Shown in pieces: positions 7,310 to 12,468 of a stretch of 38,389 bases of DNA. The stretch is taken from the IMG/VR virus record IMGVR_UViG_3300010392_000267, positions 1 through 38,389 of that record; one strand, 5' to 3'. Made by a program: the position numbers and the translations under genes. Within the stretch, counting starts at the first letter, position 1. Each line of letters opens with the position of its first letter. Under the pieces are notes generated by a model that did not search any database, was not told the origin of the DNA, and worked only from the letters and a program-made list of their open reading frames with translations. The DNA is from a virus.

Positions 7310-7515
7310 GTTGATTGCTCTGGTGGTAATGGTTGCCAGTGAGTTATGTCGGGAAAATAGAACCCAACAGGCAAGTCTTTAACAATCCACTTCTTGCGGG
7401 TATACCCTGCGGAACACCAAAACTCGCCTTCGGCCTCTACCCCATTGGTTGTGAGTAGGCGAACCTTCTGCGCATGCTCTGGCAACCGCACACCAACAGG
7501 TATCCACTTGCTCAT
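7306..7515 (-). CDS. DUF551 domain protein
   Basis: A 69-residue protein starting MSKWIPVGVRLPEHAQKV and ending DITHWQPLPPEQST. The pattern W-I-P-V...RLPE ... ITHWxPLP defines the DUF551 family, common in lambdoid phages and prophages. Its biochemical role is unknown. The start at 7515 is chosen because the family begins MSKWI; a longer version from 7599 would overlap the previous gene heavily. The 4-base overlaps on both sides fit a coupled operon. Confidence 0.8.
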   Translation of the reverse strand: MSKWIPVGVRLPEHAQKVRLLTTNGVEAEGEFWCSAGYTRKKWIVKDLPVGFYFPDITHWQPLPPEQST

Positions 7516-7812: not shown

Positions 7813-8023
7813 CTGATTGCTCCTTGTACCAGCCGCCCGTATATCTGCGTAGCGACCTTAGATTGCACTCTTTCGGGTTGTGGTCAGGCGTTAGTGCTAT
7901 CAGTGACCCATCACGTTCAATGATTGGCGCGACAACGACAACGGGAGGTATGCCATAAGAAAAGCGCACATTGTCTCCCACGGTAACCCATTCGCCATCA
8001 TCATCGCGTAGTCGCTTACCCAC
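7805..8023 (-). CDS. Hypothetical early protein
   Basis: A 72-residue protein, GTG start at 8023, chosen because GAGGAG lies 8 bases upstream (8032-8037) while the farther GTG at 8038 has the same motif inside it. The chain GKRLRDDDGEWVTVGDNVRFSYG...VVVVAPIIERDG is a small beta-barrel-like pattern, often seen in SH3-like or KOW-type folds, but this is only an impression. It overlaps the upstream gene by 8 bases. Function unknown. Confidence 0.55.
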   Translation of the reverse strand: MGKRLRDDDGEWVTVGDNVRFSYGIPPVVVVAPIIERDGSLIALTPDHNPKECNLRSLRRYTGGWYKEQSDE

Positions 8024-8207
8024 CAAACCGCTCCTCACAAAATTCCCGCTCCCGCCTGTTCAACCCCGATTCCTGGCACAACTCGTACTGCATCAATCTA
8101 AAGTCCTCTGGACTTGGGTAATAGCGCGGTAAAGGTTCTCCAACGCATACAGGGTTTATCTGCTGGAAGGACAGGCAGAGTAGGGCGGCTGTGGGGATGA
8201 GTTTCAT
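8016..8207 (-). CDS. Small protein with signal-like N-terminus
   Basis: A 63-residue protein starting MKLIPTAALLCLSF, a short positively charged then hydrophobic N-terminus like a secretion signal. The rest is charged, with two Cys (LCQESG, FCEERFGG) that could form a disulfide in the periplasm. No lipobox is clear. The start overlaps the stop of the upstream gene (ATGA). Function unknown; a host envelope interaction is possible but not shown. Confidence 0.55.
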   Translation of the reverse strand: MKLIPTAALLCLSFQQINPVCVGEPLPRYYPSPEDFRLMQYELCQESGLNRREREFCEERFGG

Positions 8208-8650
8208 TTGCCAGCTAGCCCGCAGTAGCCCAGAGCAGGGTCATCGGTTGGCAACGTCATGCCGAGTCGCAACCCCCGTTCTGCAAGGGCGTTTTTTATC
8301 AAGCCGAATGATTTTTTCCCCAAGCCCGGTTCAATGAGCAACTCTCGCTCTGAACGAACAAGCACGTCCCTTATAGTGTTGATGTCATTTCCAATCAGCG
8401 CGTTTTGCGACCGTATATCCAAACCAAGGCTCTTGACTGATTCGTGGCAAATATCCGAAAGCCCCGGCGCTCCCCACCGCCACATAGCGCACTTGCTGGC
8501 TATGCAGCGCGAGTCCGGTGGGTTCATTTGCATCTCTGTCACGCCGTCCCCACCAGCGCCTATCCAGCGGTTAGCGGCAGGTTCGTCGCAATTCCCCTGA
8601 CTGCGCGCCATCGGACACCACAGTTCTCTGGCTTCTTTCTCGGTGTGCAT
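8204..8650 (-). CDS. Cys-motif phage protein with inserted RNA polymerase alpha-CTD-like domain
   Basis: A 148-residue protein of two interleaved parts. The outer part has WCPMAR (C12), RCIASKC-AMWRW (C49, C54) and YCGLAGK (C143); this set recalls a family of short phage proteins of unknown role and could bind zinc or an iron-sulfur cluster. Between them, residues ~65-131 match the C-terminal domain of RNA polymerase alpha: SLGLDIRSQNALIG, then LLIEPGLGKKSFGLIK, then LAERGLRLGM. Counterparts of the E. coli DNA-contact residues are kept (R265=R80, N268=N83, G296=G111, K298=K113, S299=S114; E302 is Leu). The acidic sigma-contact positions 259 and 261 are Ser and Gly. I infer a minor-groove DNA-binding module, perhaps acting at UP-like sequences or as an alpha mimic. 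SD GGAG precedes the ATG by about 7 bases. Confidence 0.8.
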   Translation of the reverse strand: MHTEKEARELWCPMARSQGNCDEPAANRWIGAGGDGVTEMQMNPPDSRCIASKCAMWRWGAPGLSDICHESVKSLGLDIRSQNALIGNDINTIRDVLVRSERELLIEPGLGKKSFGLIKNALAERGLRLGMTLPTDDPALGYCGLAGK

Positions 8651-8662
8651 ATCTATCTCCAG

Positions 8663-9094
8663 TTAAACAAGCCCGCGTATAGGGGCGAACGGCAAATCGT
8701 CCTCTATCGCCCCACCAGAACCGGCAGCGGGGGCTTGGGAGGAACGATCTTGAGCAGTCGATGCGCCCCCACCACCGGGTTTTTTCGAGTCAGCAAACGA
8801 CCAGCTGTTGGCGATGATCTCCAGCGAAAACCGCTTGCCGTTGTCGGTATCGTAGGGGCGGTTCTGTTCTTCGCCAGCGACGATCACTGCTGAGCCTTTT
8901 TGCAAATGTTTGGCTGCGGCCTCACCGCGTTTGCCAAACACCGTGACGCGCCGCCATGTGGTGCATTCGTTGTCACCGTAGCCGGTGGTGGTCGCGACGC
9001 TGAACGTGCAGCGCGCCAGCCCGCTCGGAGCAAAGGCCAGTTCGGGGTCGGCACCGAGGTGTCCGGCGATGACCAGGTTGCAGAAATTGGGCAT
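8663..9094 (-). CDS. ssb: Single-stranded DNA-binding protein
   Basis: A 143-residue SSB with an OB-fold (residues ~1-105: NLVIAGHLGADPEL, TFSVATTTGYG, TTWRRVTVFGKRGEAAAKHLQKGS, LEIIANSWSF) and a flexible Gly/Ser/Ala linker. The acidic protein-docking motif is DDLPF, but eight further residues (APIRGLV end) follow it, whereas host SSB ends exactly at this tip; docking of host partners may be altered. It forms one operon with the exonuclease and annealing protein upstream; its ATG overlaps their stop (TAATG). It would coat single strands during phage replication and Red-type recombination. Confidence 0.92.
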   Translation of the reverse strand: MPNFCNLVIAGHLGADPELAFAPSGLARCTFSVATTTGYGDNECTTWRRVTVFGKRGEAAAKHLQKGSAVIVAGEEQNRPYDTDNGKRFSLEIIANSWSFADSKKPGGGGASTAQDRSSQAPAAGSGGAIEDDLPFAPIRGLV

Positions 9095-10647
9095 TACGCG
9101 GCCTCCTGCTTTACGAACAGGTCTTGAATCAGCGCCGTGGCTGCGTTGTCGCTCAGGTTGTAAGCGTCGGCGACCAGGCGAACGATGGATGCGCGGGTTG
9201 GCCCACCTTCGGACGCGGTGGGCGCTTTGTAGGTCGGCGGCGGGTCGATGGTGCCCGCTGGCGCCGACTGGTGGCTCGCGGCTTCTGACTGCTGCGCTTT
9301 CTCGGCATCCTCGCGTTCGATGCGCTCACGCTCTTTGCGAGCGGCTTCCGCCGCAATGCGGTCCTGCTCGGCCTTGTGTTCGTTAATGCGCAGCGTGACC
9401 AGGTTGGCAAAATCGTCCGGCTCTTTCGTGACGATCTGCTGCACGTCGCGGAACAGGTGCTCGACGCCAGTGGCTTCCTTGCGCAGCAATTCAAGGTTCA
9501 GGCGAATGCGGTCGCCGATCTCGCTGGCCTCGATCTTGACGCGTGCCACTTCATCGGCACAGGCGTCTTTCAGACTGGTGATCGTGCGCTTGTTTTTCAT
9601 CACGCCGGCAAAGTTCGGTGTGATCGCCGGCAGCGTGACCTTGCCGCCCAGCGTTTCGTTGATCTGCGCGATGTGGTGATCGACCTGCTCTTGTGCGTTG
9701 TTCTTGATTTCGATGCGGATGGCATCTTTGCGGGCCTTCACCAGCTTGTTGAGCTCCAGCCGCTTCTTGCGCATGGATTCGCTCAGGTGATCGAGTGTGC
9801 GGAACAAGTCGTCGATGCTGGCGGTTTGTGCCAGCGCCTGTTTTTTGACCGTCTCGATTTCTTTCTCGCCGGAGTCGAGAAACTTCACCATCTGCTCGGC
9901 GTCGGCAAAGTCCTGATCGGTTTGCAGGTCGGTGTTAATGGCAGCGACACGCGCAGACACCACGTCTTTGTACGTTGCCAGGTTGCTGTTCTTGACCTCG
10001 CCGGCCAGCTCCACGGCCAGCGTGGGCAGGGCGTCGATCTGCTGGGCAACGGCCTCCACGGATTCGTCGGGCACGTAGCCATCAAGATCGGCATTGAACT
10101 GTTGCCAGCCCGCCAGCAGTCGGTCGAAGTCTCCGCACGCATCAACATGTGCCGCTGTAAGCCAGCATGATGCGTTGTTGTCGGCATCGCTCAGCATGTA
10201 CAGGGCTTTCTTCGCGCCGCTGATGTAAAGCTGCTGCACGACTTGCCAGTAGTCGGCAGTGGGCACACGACCGGCTGCGACTTCTTCGGCCTTGGCCTGA
10301 TTCCACAGCTTGTGCTCCCAAACCACTTCGCGGTCCATCGTCAGGCCGTCGAAACTGGCAGACAACTGACCGTCATCATCCAGCCCGGTGACCGGGAAAA
10401 GCTCCGCGCCGATTTCTTTCTCGGCAACGGGTCGGGCAGCTTCCTCGGCGGCGTGGCCTTTGTTGAAGATCGCCTGTTTTACAGCGGACACGTCGCTGGT
10501 CTGCCCGGTCGCTTTCTGGCGCAGCAGCTCAGAGCGTTTCATGTAGGGGCTTTCGCCCATCATGGCGGGCGCTTCGGAAGCCGTTCGGCATTGGGCGCGG
10601 AAAGCGTCCCATTCCGGTGAGCCCTGTACGAGGTTAAGCGTTTTCAT
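9094..10647 (-). CDS. exo: YqaJ/lambda Exo-type 5'-3' exonuclease with long C-terminal extension
   Basis: A 517-residue alkaline exonuclease of the YqaJ family, which resects double-strand ends for the annealing protein. The N-terminal 210 residues are the nuclease: GSPEWDAFR, TASEAPAMMGESPYM, NKGHAAEEAARP (E69), then the metal-binding core with D100 (SASFDGL), E111 and K113 (WEHKLWN), then YWQVVQQLYISG. The remaining 300 residues are mostly helical and coiled-coil-like, with a charged Arg/Glu stretch near 420-450 and a short basic C-terminal helical segment. Lambda Exo is only 226 residues, so the extension is an added domain, perhaps for partner or end binding. The start overlaps the end of the Bet gene. 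Confidence 0.9.
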   Translation of the reverse strand: MKTLNLVQGSPEWDAFRAQCRTASEAPAMMGESPYMKRSELLRQKATGQTSDVSAVKQAIFNKGHAAEEAARPVAEKEIGAELFPVTGLDDDGQLSASFDGLTMDREVVWEHKLWNQAKAEEVAAGRVPTADYWQVVQQLYISGAKKALYMLSDADNNASCWLTAAHVDACGDFDRLLAGWQQFNADLDGYVPDESVEAVAQQIDALPTLAVELAGEVKNSNLATYKDVVSARVAAINTDLQTDQDFADAEQMVKFLDSGEKEIETVKKQALAQTASIDDLFRTLDHLSESMRKKRLELNKLVKARKDAIRIEIKNNAQEQVDHHIAQINETLGGKVTLPAITPNFAGVMKNKRTITSLKDACADEVARVKIEASEIGDRIRLNLELLRKEATGVEHLFRDVQQIVTKEPDDFANLVTLRINEHKAEQDRIAAEAARKERERIEREDAEKAQQSEAASHQSAPAGTIDPPPTYKAPTASEGGPTRASIVRLVADAYNLSDNAATALIQDLFVKQEAA

Positions 10648-11398
10648 TGATTTCTCCGTCGATGATTTCCATGTCGAGCAGTGTTTGTTTCTGCTCGTCG
10701 GTGAGCGTCGCCTTGCTTTCGATCATGTCGATGATGTTGGCGGCGGTGTTCGTGCCGGCTTCGATCAGCTTCGTCCAGGCGGGCAGATTGAAGTCGAACT
10801 GCGATTGCGGGTATGCCTCGCGCTCCGGGCGTTCGGGCGCTGCGGGTTCGGCAGGGGTTACGTCAATAATCCGCTCGGCCTCGTCCTCGTCGTAGATGCC
10901 GGTGTAGCTGAACGCCATCCGCGCACACTGGATGAATGCTTTGTGCCGGAGCATCCGCTTCGGGTGTGAACCCCATGCGGGCGAGTTGGCCTTGCGACAC
11001 TCCGCCAGGTACTCGGTGACTTCGGTCGCGTGGCTGCGATCTTTGCGGAAGATGCGGCAGGTGCACTTTTCATCGTCCTGGTCGAACTCCACCCCGTCGT
11101 ATTGTTTGTTCTCGTTGACGATGCGGCTCCAGCCATCAACGCCTACGACCGGCACAATCCCGCCCTGATGCGGAAAGGCATAGATTTCTTTGGTGAACGG
11201 GTTCAGCCCGTACTGGTCGGCGACGATGATCAGCGCGGCCATCTGCTCGTTCGTGACCTCGCCGTTATTCAGCCGAAAGGCTGTGGCTTTCAGCGTGGTC
11301 ATCATCTTGCCCGGCTCCATGTCGAACTTGCCGGCGAATTTCGCCATCAGTCCACGGTGTTCCGGCTGTGTTTTTTGTTCTGCGATATTGGCGACCAT
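10634..11398 (-). CDS. bet: Bet-type single-strand annealing recombinase
   Basis: A 254-residue member of the lambda Bet/RecT superfamily. Typical segments are EQMAALIIVADQYGLNPFTKEIYAFP, IVPVVGVDGWSRIVNEN, WGSHPKRMLRHKAFIQCARMAF and YDEDEAERI. It anneals complementary strands exposed by the downstream exonuclease; together with SSB it forms a Red-like operon transcribed from the leftward promoter. The last 70 residues after the conserved core are an acidic linker and helix of no known role. The ATG lies only 2 bases after the stop of the 34-residue microORF. Confidence 0.93.
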   Translation of the reverse strand: MVANIAEQKTQPEHRGLMAKFAGKFDMEPGKMMTTLKATAFRLNNGEVTNEQMAALIIVADQYGLNPFTKEIYAFPHQGGIVPVVGVDGWSRIVNENKQYDGVEFDQDDEKCTCRIFRKDRSHATEVTEYLAECRKANSPAWGSHPKRMLRHKAFIQCARMAFSYTGIYDEDEAERIIDVTPAEPAAPERPEREAYPQSQFDFNLPAWTKLIEAGTNTAANIIDMIESKATLTDEQKQTLLDMEIIDGEINENA

Positions 11399-11786: not shown

Positions 11787-12209
11787 CTATTCGGTGGAGT
11801 AGTCGGGGCTTTCTTCGTGGACGGTGACAGAGTCCTGAAACGCTTCACGGCGGTCGACATCACCCCCGAAATACAGCGTGCGGCCAATTTTCAGCATGGC
11901 GGCGGCGCTGTCCTGCGCCGTGTGCGGCATATCACGGAAAACATTCAAAAGGTCTAATTCGGCCTCTGAGAGCGGCTCAGACGATTTCATGCTGCCGCTG
12001 CCCATCGCCAGCCATTCCAGGCGGATCTTGAGCACGCGGCATATATCCAGCACGGCATCCAGACCGGGGACGGCCTGACCCTTTTGCCATTTGTAGACCG
12101 CAGGTTTAGTGCGGCCGATTTTCTCCGCCAGCGTGGGCGCCGTGTACTCCGATTGCTTGATGGCTTTCTCAAGCCGCCGGCCAAAGGCAAGTTTCGCTGC
12201 TTCATCCAT
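11787..12209 (-). CDS. cI: CI-like phage repressor, short form
   Basis: A 140-residue repressor starting MDEAAKLAFGRRLEKAI. Residues ~10-72 are an XRE/Cro-type helix-turn-helix domain (TLAEKIGRTKPAVYKWQKG, then PGLDAVLDICRVLKIRLEWLAMG). The rest is a short helix region (EAELDLLNVFRDMPHTAQDSA) and acidic tail; there is no S24/LexA-like peptidase domain and no Ala-Gly cleavage site, so RecA-stimulated self-cleavage is not expected. The ATG at 12209 is chosen because the upstream extension to 12362 runs through the operators and cro. An inverted repeat (CGAGAG/CTCTCG, 12213-12234) lies in its leader and no clear Shine-Dalgarno is seen. Divergent from cro, it should bind the four GKMAAC-N4-GTTWMC sites and maintain lysogeny. 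Confidence 0.85.
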   Translation of the reverse strand: MDEAAKLAFGRRLEKAIKQSEYTAPTLAEKIGRTKPAVYKWQKGQAVPGLDAVLDICRVLKIRLEWLAMGSGSMKSSEPLSEAELDLLNVFRDMPHTAQDSAAAMLKIGRTLYFGGDVDRREAFQDSVTVHEESPDYSTE

Positions 12210-12233
12210 CGGCGAGAGGCTACCGCGTCTCTC

Positions 12234-12249
12234 GGAAACAAAGGTTTCC
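12234..12249. promoter_or_regulatory. Operator OR1
   Basis: GGAAAC-AAAG-GTTTCC, a palindrome with perfect 6-base arms, just upstream of the -35 of the rightward promoter and in the leader of the repressor gene. It is the best match to the shared half-site and probably the strongest site. Confidence 0.75.
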
Positions 12250-12256
12250 CGATGGC

Positions 12257-12285
12257 TTGACTTGCAAAGGAAACTATCGTTTACT
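12257..12285 (+). promoter_or_regulatory. Rightward early promoter (PR-like)
   Basis: TTGACT (12257-12262), 17-base spacer, TTTACT (12280-12285). Only six bases separate the -10 hexamer from the cro ATG, so the predicted transcript starts at or within a base or two of the start codon. OR2 overlaps the spacer and -10 region. Confidence 0.75.
12269..12284. promoter_or_regulatory. Operator OR2
   Basis: GGAAAC-TATC-GTTTAC, 16 bp, in the spacer and -10 of the rightward promoter; its centre is 35 bp from that of OR1. Occupation would block cro transcription. Confidence 0.7.
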
Positions 12286-12291
12286 CTCGGC

Positions 12292-12468
12292 ATGAAGAAA
12301 CAGGACGCAATCGAGCACTTTGGCGACGCGGTGAAACTCGCGAAGGCACTGGGTATCAGCAAGCAGGCCGTCTACAAGTGGCCTGACGTGGTGCCAGAAG
12401 GGCGCCAGTACCAGCTCGAAATTGTCACGCAGGGCAAATTGCAGGCTGAGCGTCCGAGCGCGGCTTAG
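12292..12468 (+). CDS. cro: Cro-type repressor (P22 Cro family)
   Basis: A 58-residue DNA-binding protein starting MKKQDAIEHFGDAVKLAKAL, with helix-turn-helix LAKALGISKQAVYKW and the P22-Cro-family ending VPEGRQYQLEIVTQGKL. It competes with the repressor for the shared operators and favours lytic growth. The ATG at 12292 is the only start that fits the family; upstream extension to 12109 would run through the promoter. The start codon is at the predicted transcription start, with no room for a Shine-Dalgarno sequence, so the mRNA is probably leaderless. Confidence 0.88.
   Translation: MKKQDAIEHFGDAVKLAKALGISKQAVYKWPDVVPEGRQYQLEIVTQGKLQAERPSAA

Follow-up and report, generated by a model that had tools for sequence, protein, structure and literature searches.

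We found that a 148-residue phage protein carries the C-terminal domain of the bacterial RNA polymerase alpha subunit (alpha-CTD) in its middle, where the domain separates the two ends conserved in a four-cysteine family that is otherwise unrelated to it. The window analysed here is the whole of a 38,389-nucleotide virus record (IMG/VR IMGVR_UViG_3300010392_000267), and all positions refer to it. We put the probability at roughly 0.5 that the Cys scaffold is tethered by the alpha-CTD to AT-rich, UP-element-like DNA and competes with, or modulates, the host polymerase. In the papers searched, we came across no description of alpha-CTD modules encoded by phages, of such modules inserted in other proteins, or of the Cys family. 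What is already known is that orphan phage alpha-CTDs have been named in databases, and that the T4 proteins Alt and ModA act on R265 of the alpha-CTD (PMC2988021).

Results and Discussion

The features of the region are collected in Table 1; for the open reading frame itself, an earlier note on this DNA had given the correct strand and coordinates. The gene belongs to a leftward run and follows recT, recE and ssb, with only 12 bases between ssb and its start, while its stop codon shares bases with the start of the following frame (ATGA). Elsewhere the 38.4-kb record encodes an integrase, CI-like and Cro-like regulators, a replication initiator, a terminase and a head-tail connector, a gene set that, together with the recombination genes, indicates a temperate phage. 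The CI-like repressor gene overlaps that of the Cro-like regulator (plus strand, 12109-12468) on the opposite strand, the two spanning 11787-12468. Between positions 7400 and 12700 we counted 14 terminator-like sites against 6.6 in shuffles, or twice as many. The position in the RecT-RecE-SSB operon supports the proposal, made in the earlier note, of an early-type phage protein, which would presumably be expressed early. We count the placement of the recombination operon below a CI-like repressor in favour of the tethering reading, and count against it that no sigma-70-like promoter site was matched between 7400 and 12700.

Table 1. Positions of the inserted domain, its scaffold and the neighbouring genes in the window.
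Feature	Position	Strand	Basis
148-aa ORF, four-cysteine phage protein with inserted alpha-CTD	8204..8650	-	ORF listing, translation
N-terminal half of Cys scaffold, residues 1-60 (...WCPM... CIASKCAMWRWG), with C12, C49, C54	8471..8650	-	alignment with 12 relatives
alpha-CTD insert, about residues 65-134	8249..8458	-	PF03118, AlphaFold, Foldseek
C-terminal scaffold end, residues 139-148 (ALGYCGLAGK), with C143	8207..8236	-	alignment with relatives
Downstream overlapping ORF, 63 aa, no family match in Pfam or PHROG	8016..8207	-	
SSB gene, upstream neighbour of the 148-aa ORF	8663..9094	-	Pfam SSB 2.5e-19; phrog_44 2.6e-34
RecE-like exonuclease, same operon	9094..10647	-	phrog_7655 3.3e-173
Bet/RecT-like annealing protein, same operon	10634..11398	-	phrog_252 1.9e-79
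CI-like repressor, head of the leftward gene run	11787..12362	-	phrog_8 3.7e-10

The identity of the insert is settled by Pfam, phmmer, AlphaFold and Foldseek together. PF03118 (RNA_pol_A_CTD) is the sole Pfam match of the protein (residues 68-124, E=4.3e-10, 39.6 bits against a gathering cut-off of 23.8), and phmmer against the PDB returned only alpha subunits, the best being the E. coli alpha-CTD (residues 65-139, E=1.2e-10); the alpha-CTD-like domain had been claimed at about residues 65-131. AlphaFold, run on an alignment combining phage alpha-CTDs with relatives from the Cys family, models residues 70-130 at a pLDDT of about 97. The top Foldseek match is 3n97_C, the E. coli alpha-CTD on UP-element DNA (E=6.4e-6, rmsd 0.9 over 69 columns), so that the fold is predicted to be the helix-hairpin-helix fold of the alpha-CTD. 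The earlier note had named structure prediction and profile search as the places where its claim might fail; the predicted fold agrees with the claim, and the profile search gave PF03118 rather than only unrelated families.

In sequence the insert is like the RNA polymerase alpha-CTD (PF03118; E. coli structures 3n97, 1lb2 and 3k4g), with 46-52% identity to gammaproteobacterial RpoA. In contrast to RpoA, the phage protein has no alpha-NTD and only 148 residues, matches at the CTD only, and embeds the domain in another protein. Its gene is not rpoA and stands beside ssb, recE and recT rather than in an rpoA context, and the NCBIfam RpoA models score far below their cut-off.

Gammaproteobacterial RpoA is also the nearest relative of the insert, and phage alpha-CTDs reach at most 41%, which suggests that the insert may have been taken separately from a host rpoA and have diverged since. 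The G+C content of 0.49, compared with 0.61 in the N-terminal part, fits an acquired segment. Descent from another phage alpha-CTD found no support (RpoA nearest at 0.456, phage copies at 0.41 or below). An assembly chimera, or a wrongly called frame that fuses a phage gene with the host's rpoA, could be suspected, as the record is a single IMG/VR contig with no second copy. We give this hardly any credence: no RpoA seen exceeds 46-52% identity to the segment, the NWPP tail of the RpoA C-terminus is absent, and the frame continues into GYCGLAGK, with an overlapping gene next.

The insert is flanked by RCIASKCAMWRW and GYCGLAGK, which form the conserved ends of a single family and occur in relatives that have no insert, just as the earlier note had supposed in placing the domain inside a single Cys-motif protein. 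This unnamed Cys4 phage family has 46 distinct members including the window protein, which shows all its motifs in order (WCPM, Cx4C..WR, GYCGLAG). The Cx4C..WR pattern is present in 46/46 members, partly by construction since such a motif was used to gather them; a recognisable (G)YCGLAG end occurs in nearly all, and WCP is shared. Across 12 aligned relatives T3, A7, W11-M14, C49 and C54-W59 are invariant in the N-terminal half, as are G141-G144 and A146 at the C-terminal end of the aligned relatives. The conserved cysteines are C12, C49, C54 and C143, exactly the set singled out before, while C21 varies. The relatives come from viral contigs, from Pseudomonas phage Dolphis and rarely from bacterial genomes. 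Dolphis gp111 and its relatives share WCPM, Cx4CAMWRW, GYCGLAG and the four cysteines with the window protein; unlike it, they hold 6-86 residues of other sequence in place of the alpha-CTD. In Pfam, NCBIfam and the PDB we found no relative of the scaffold, and in PHROG no convincing one. Among the neighbours of family members, ssb was found at 4 loci and recE with recT at 1, which gives no strong gene link. The scaffold is modelled at low confidence (pLDDT about 45-60 with the combined alignment). With the Cys family alone the pLDDT is 52.7, and the model hints at strands at 11-15, 54-59 and 140-145, which would arise from the three Cys motifs and are too weak for use.

The linker between the second and third motif is variable in the family, with 6-86 residues in relatives and 83 in the window protein, where the alpha-CTD makes up most of it. 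We conclude that the Cys family generally accepts insertions at this site. Most linkers are short and belong to no known family. One (L163, 2504 onward) carries a CxxCxGxG pair like that of DnaJ zinc fingers, which scores under the cut-off in Pfam. Four others (L138, L142, L151, L171) are 72-86 residues long, and the two of them that were scanned had no Pfam match; L138, L142 and L151 have a common 72-residue linker with a PPRP...VPA.A.W segment. None of the other family members found has an alpha-CTD in the linker, and no second alpha-CTD-bearing member appeared in viral contigs, one genome-contig scan, and samples of 398 and 385 genomes. The search for relatives with and without the insertion, as proposed earlier, thus yielded the latter only, and the exact architecture is held by one sequence among those found.

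An alpha-CTD in the middle of a protein was also detected in a second family, phrog_2201 (MNNPPAFP...LRDYFAA...ADAMLKAR), which has a different scaffold without the Cys motif. The protein at L036/L193 (L036:2857-3315) belongs to it with E=5e-16 over two matched stretches. In 58 distinct relatives, where both motifs were found, the stretch from LRDYFAA to ADAMLKAR has 19-36 residues; in the members L193 and L195 it has 108 and 101 and carries the alpha-CTD. The N-terminal ~30 residues of L193 are nearly identical to those of the insert-less L198-L208. The insert of L036 is nearer to RpoA (58-61%). In both families the domain therefore sits in the linker of proteins otherwise without it, and the mid-protein insertion in the window is not unique in kind.

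Next to the E. coli alpha-CTD, the window copy is alike in fold and has R265, N268, G296, K298 and S299 (here R80, N83, G111, K113 and S114), while D259 and E261 have become S74 and G76; the earlier note had read both the kept contacts and the lost acidic pair correctly. DNA binding by the E. coli domain depends critically on R265 and N268 (PMC11434276). The window copy has further lost R317 (to T) and W321, has R for V287, and keeps some of the residues with which the E. coli domain contacts activators (S285, E286, E288, L289). Two more positions, N294 and E302, which we take to be DNA contacts as is often done from alpha-CTD-DNA structures, are lost as well (N294 to G, E302 to L). For a sequence with 46% identity, retention of 5 of the 7 contacts has a P of about 0.17 and loss of both 259 and 261 one of about 0.29, each within chance for a single sequence. 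Any meaning drawn from these residues in the window sequence would hence be weak, and we argue selection on the contact residues from the wider phage set.

Alpha-CTD alignment scans gave 19 and then 126 viral loci (80/126 kept), and after RpoA and duplicates were dropped, at least 66 distinct alpha-CTDs outside RpoA remained in IMG/VR. Nearly all of their carriers are small phage proteins of about 95-370 residues with very varied neighbouring parts. R265 is present in 66/66, N294 in 56/66, N268 in 47/66 and W321 in 11/66. G296 (66/66), K298 (64/66) and S299 (62/66) fall under one search pattern, which builds in part of their conservation, and they also belong to the helix-hairpin-helix motif; we count both points against the tethering reading. 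Together with R265 they are conserved at least as well as the hydrophobic core. R265 lies outside the patterns of the second (126-locus) scan and is still invariant in 65 sequences without a match to the R265-bearing pattern of the first. This invariance makes it appear that R265 is under strong selection, with DNA contact as the kept function.

Orphan alpha-CTDs outside RpoA in small phage proteins include a BFVD entry ("RNA polymerase, alpha subunit, C-terminal [uncultured Caudovirales phage]"), Bacillus phage Goe8 gp005, Microbacterium phage Mazun gp26 and Ruegeria phage vB_RpoS-V16 gp23. Their flanks differ from those of the window protein, none has the Cys scaffold, and most orphan domains are placed close to a protein end, not within a second family that can be recognised. 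By eye, gp23 of the cultured phage vB_RpoS-V16 (L049:1932-2798), annotated as a pyrophosphatase, has a MazG-like part after the alpha-CTD; L093 has a GNAT-like part beside it, and L067 and L047 have zinc-ribbon-like CxxC parts. A short phage protein at L034:2788-3249 shows a weak RNA_pol_L (alpha-NTD-like) match before the alpha-CTD and is possibly a shortened RpoA. Finally, L053, L094 and L105 appear by eye to join a sigma-region-4-like helix-turn-helix to a following alpha-CTD; these joins and the phrog_2201 insertion would fit a role in DNA or promoter targeting.

One may ask whether the alpha-CTD is only a passenger, riding along in a loop that tolerates insertions and adding nothing selected to a protein that works through its Cys scaffold alone. 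The relatives' linkers of 6-86 residues with other, unrelated inserts, the single alpha-CTD-bearing member found, and the loss of N294 and E302 would agree with this. A passenger should, however, have decayed, and at 46% identity to RpoA the frame, the core and R265, N268, G296, K298 and S299 are intact; moreover, alpha-CTDs recur in many unrelated phage proteins with an invariant R265, and in phrog_2201 again mid-protein. We consider a passenger unlikely.

A different possibility is that the domain serves as a protein decoy: instead of DNA it would bind activators of the host, NusA or further partners of the alpha-CTD, or it would soak up the alpha-CTD-modifying enzymes of competing phages. 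Activators converge on the alpha-CTD as a hub (PMC11434276), phage ADP-ribosyltransferases act on it (PMC2988021), and besides the activator-contact residues that the window copy keeps, E286 is found in 51/66 and E288 in 41/66 of the other phage domains. On the other hand, the window copy has the changes at 287 and 317 and has lost 259 and 261, and protein-contact positions vary across phage alpha-CTDs (acidic at 259 in 45/66, at 261 in 49/66), but R265 never does. Both decoy variants taken together therefore seem improbable to us.

For the tethering reading we picture the following course. The outer scaffold would probably form one Zn or Fe-S site from C12, C49, C54 and C143, with the proteobacterial-type alpha-CTD sitting in its variable linker. 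The conserved scaffold ends presumably still close on each other, such that the alpha-CTD may project as an independent module. This module would most likely bind AT-rich, UP-element-like DNA via its R265 surface; docking on UP elements, as first proposed in the earlier note, is plausible, and the conserved R265 surface fits it. The scaffold would be held upstream of promoters and, early in infection, may compete with the host alpha-CTDs or form a bridge to another factor. Besides the lack of a promoter match, the lost N294 and E302, the single sequence found with this architecture and the low confidence of the scaffold model weigh against this reading.

Conclusion

Beyond what the earlier note had described, the loss of N294 and E302, the general insertion spot, the wide occurrence of phage alpha-CTDs and the second family had escaped it. 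Phages were known to modify the alpha-CTD (PMC2988021); here copies of it have apparently been built into unrelated phage proteins on more than one occasion, and its DNA-contact arginine is kept in every phage alpha-CTD seen. Tentatively, we propose that phages reuse the alpha-CTD as a mobile plug-in, set repeatedly into permissive loops of small early proteins unrelated to each other, where it may target UP elements and steer or block host transcription as part of host takeover. The natural insert-less relatives provide ready controls. If the modules do bind UP elements, they would constitute a widespread and almost unstudied class of transcription-targeting phage proteins.
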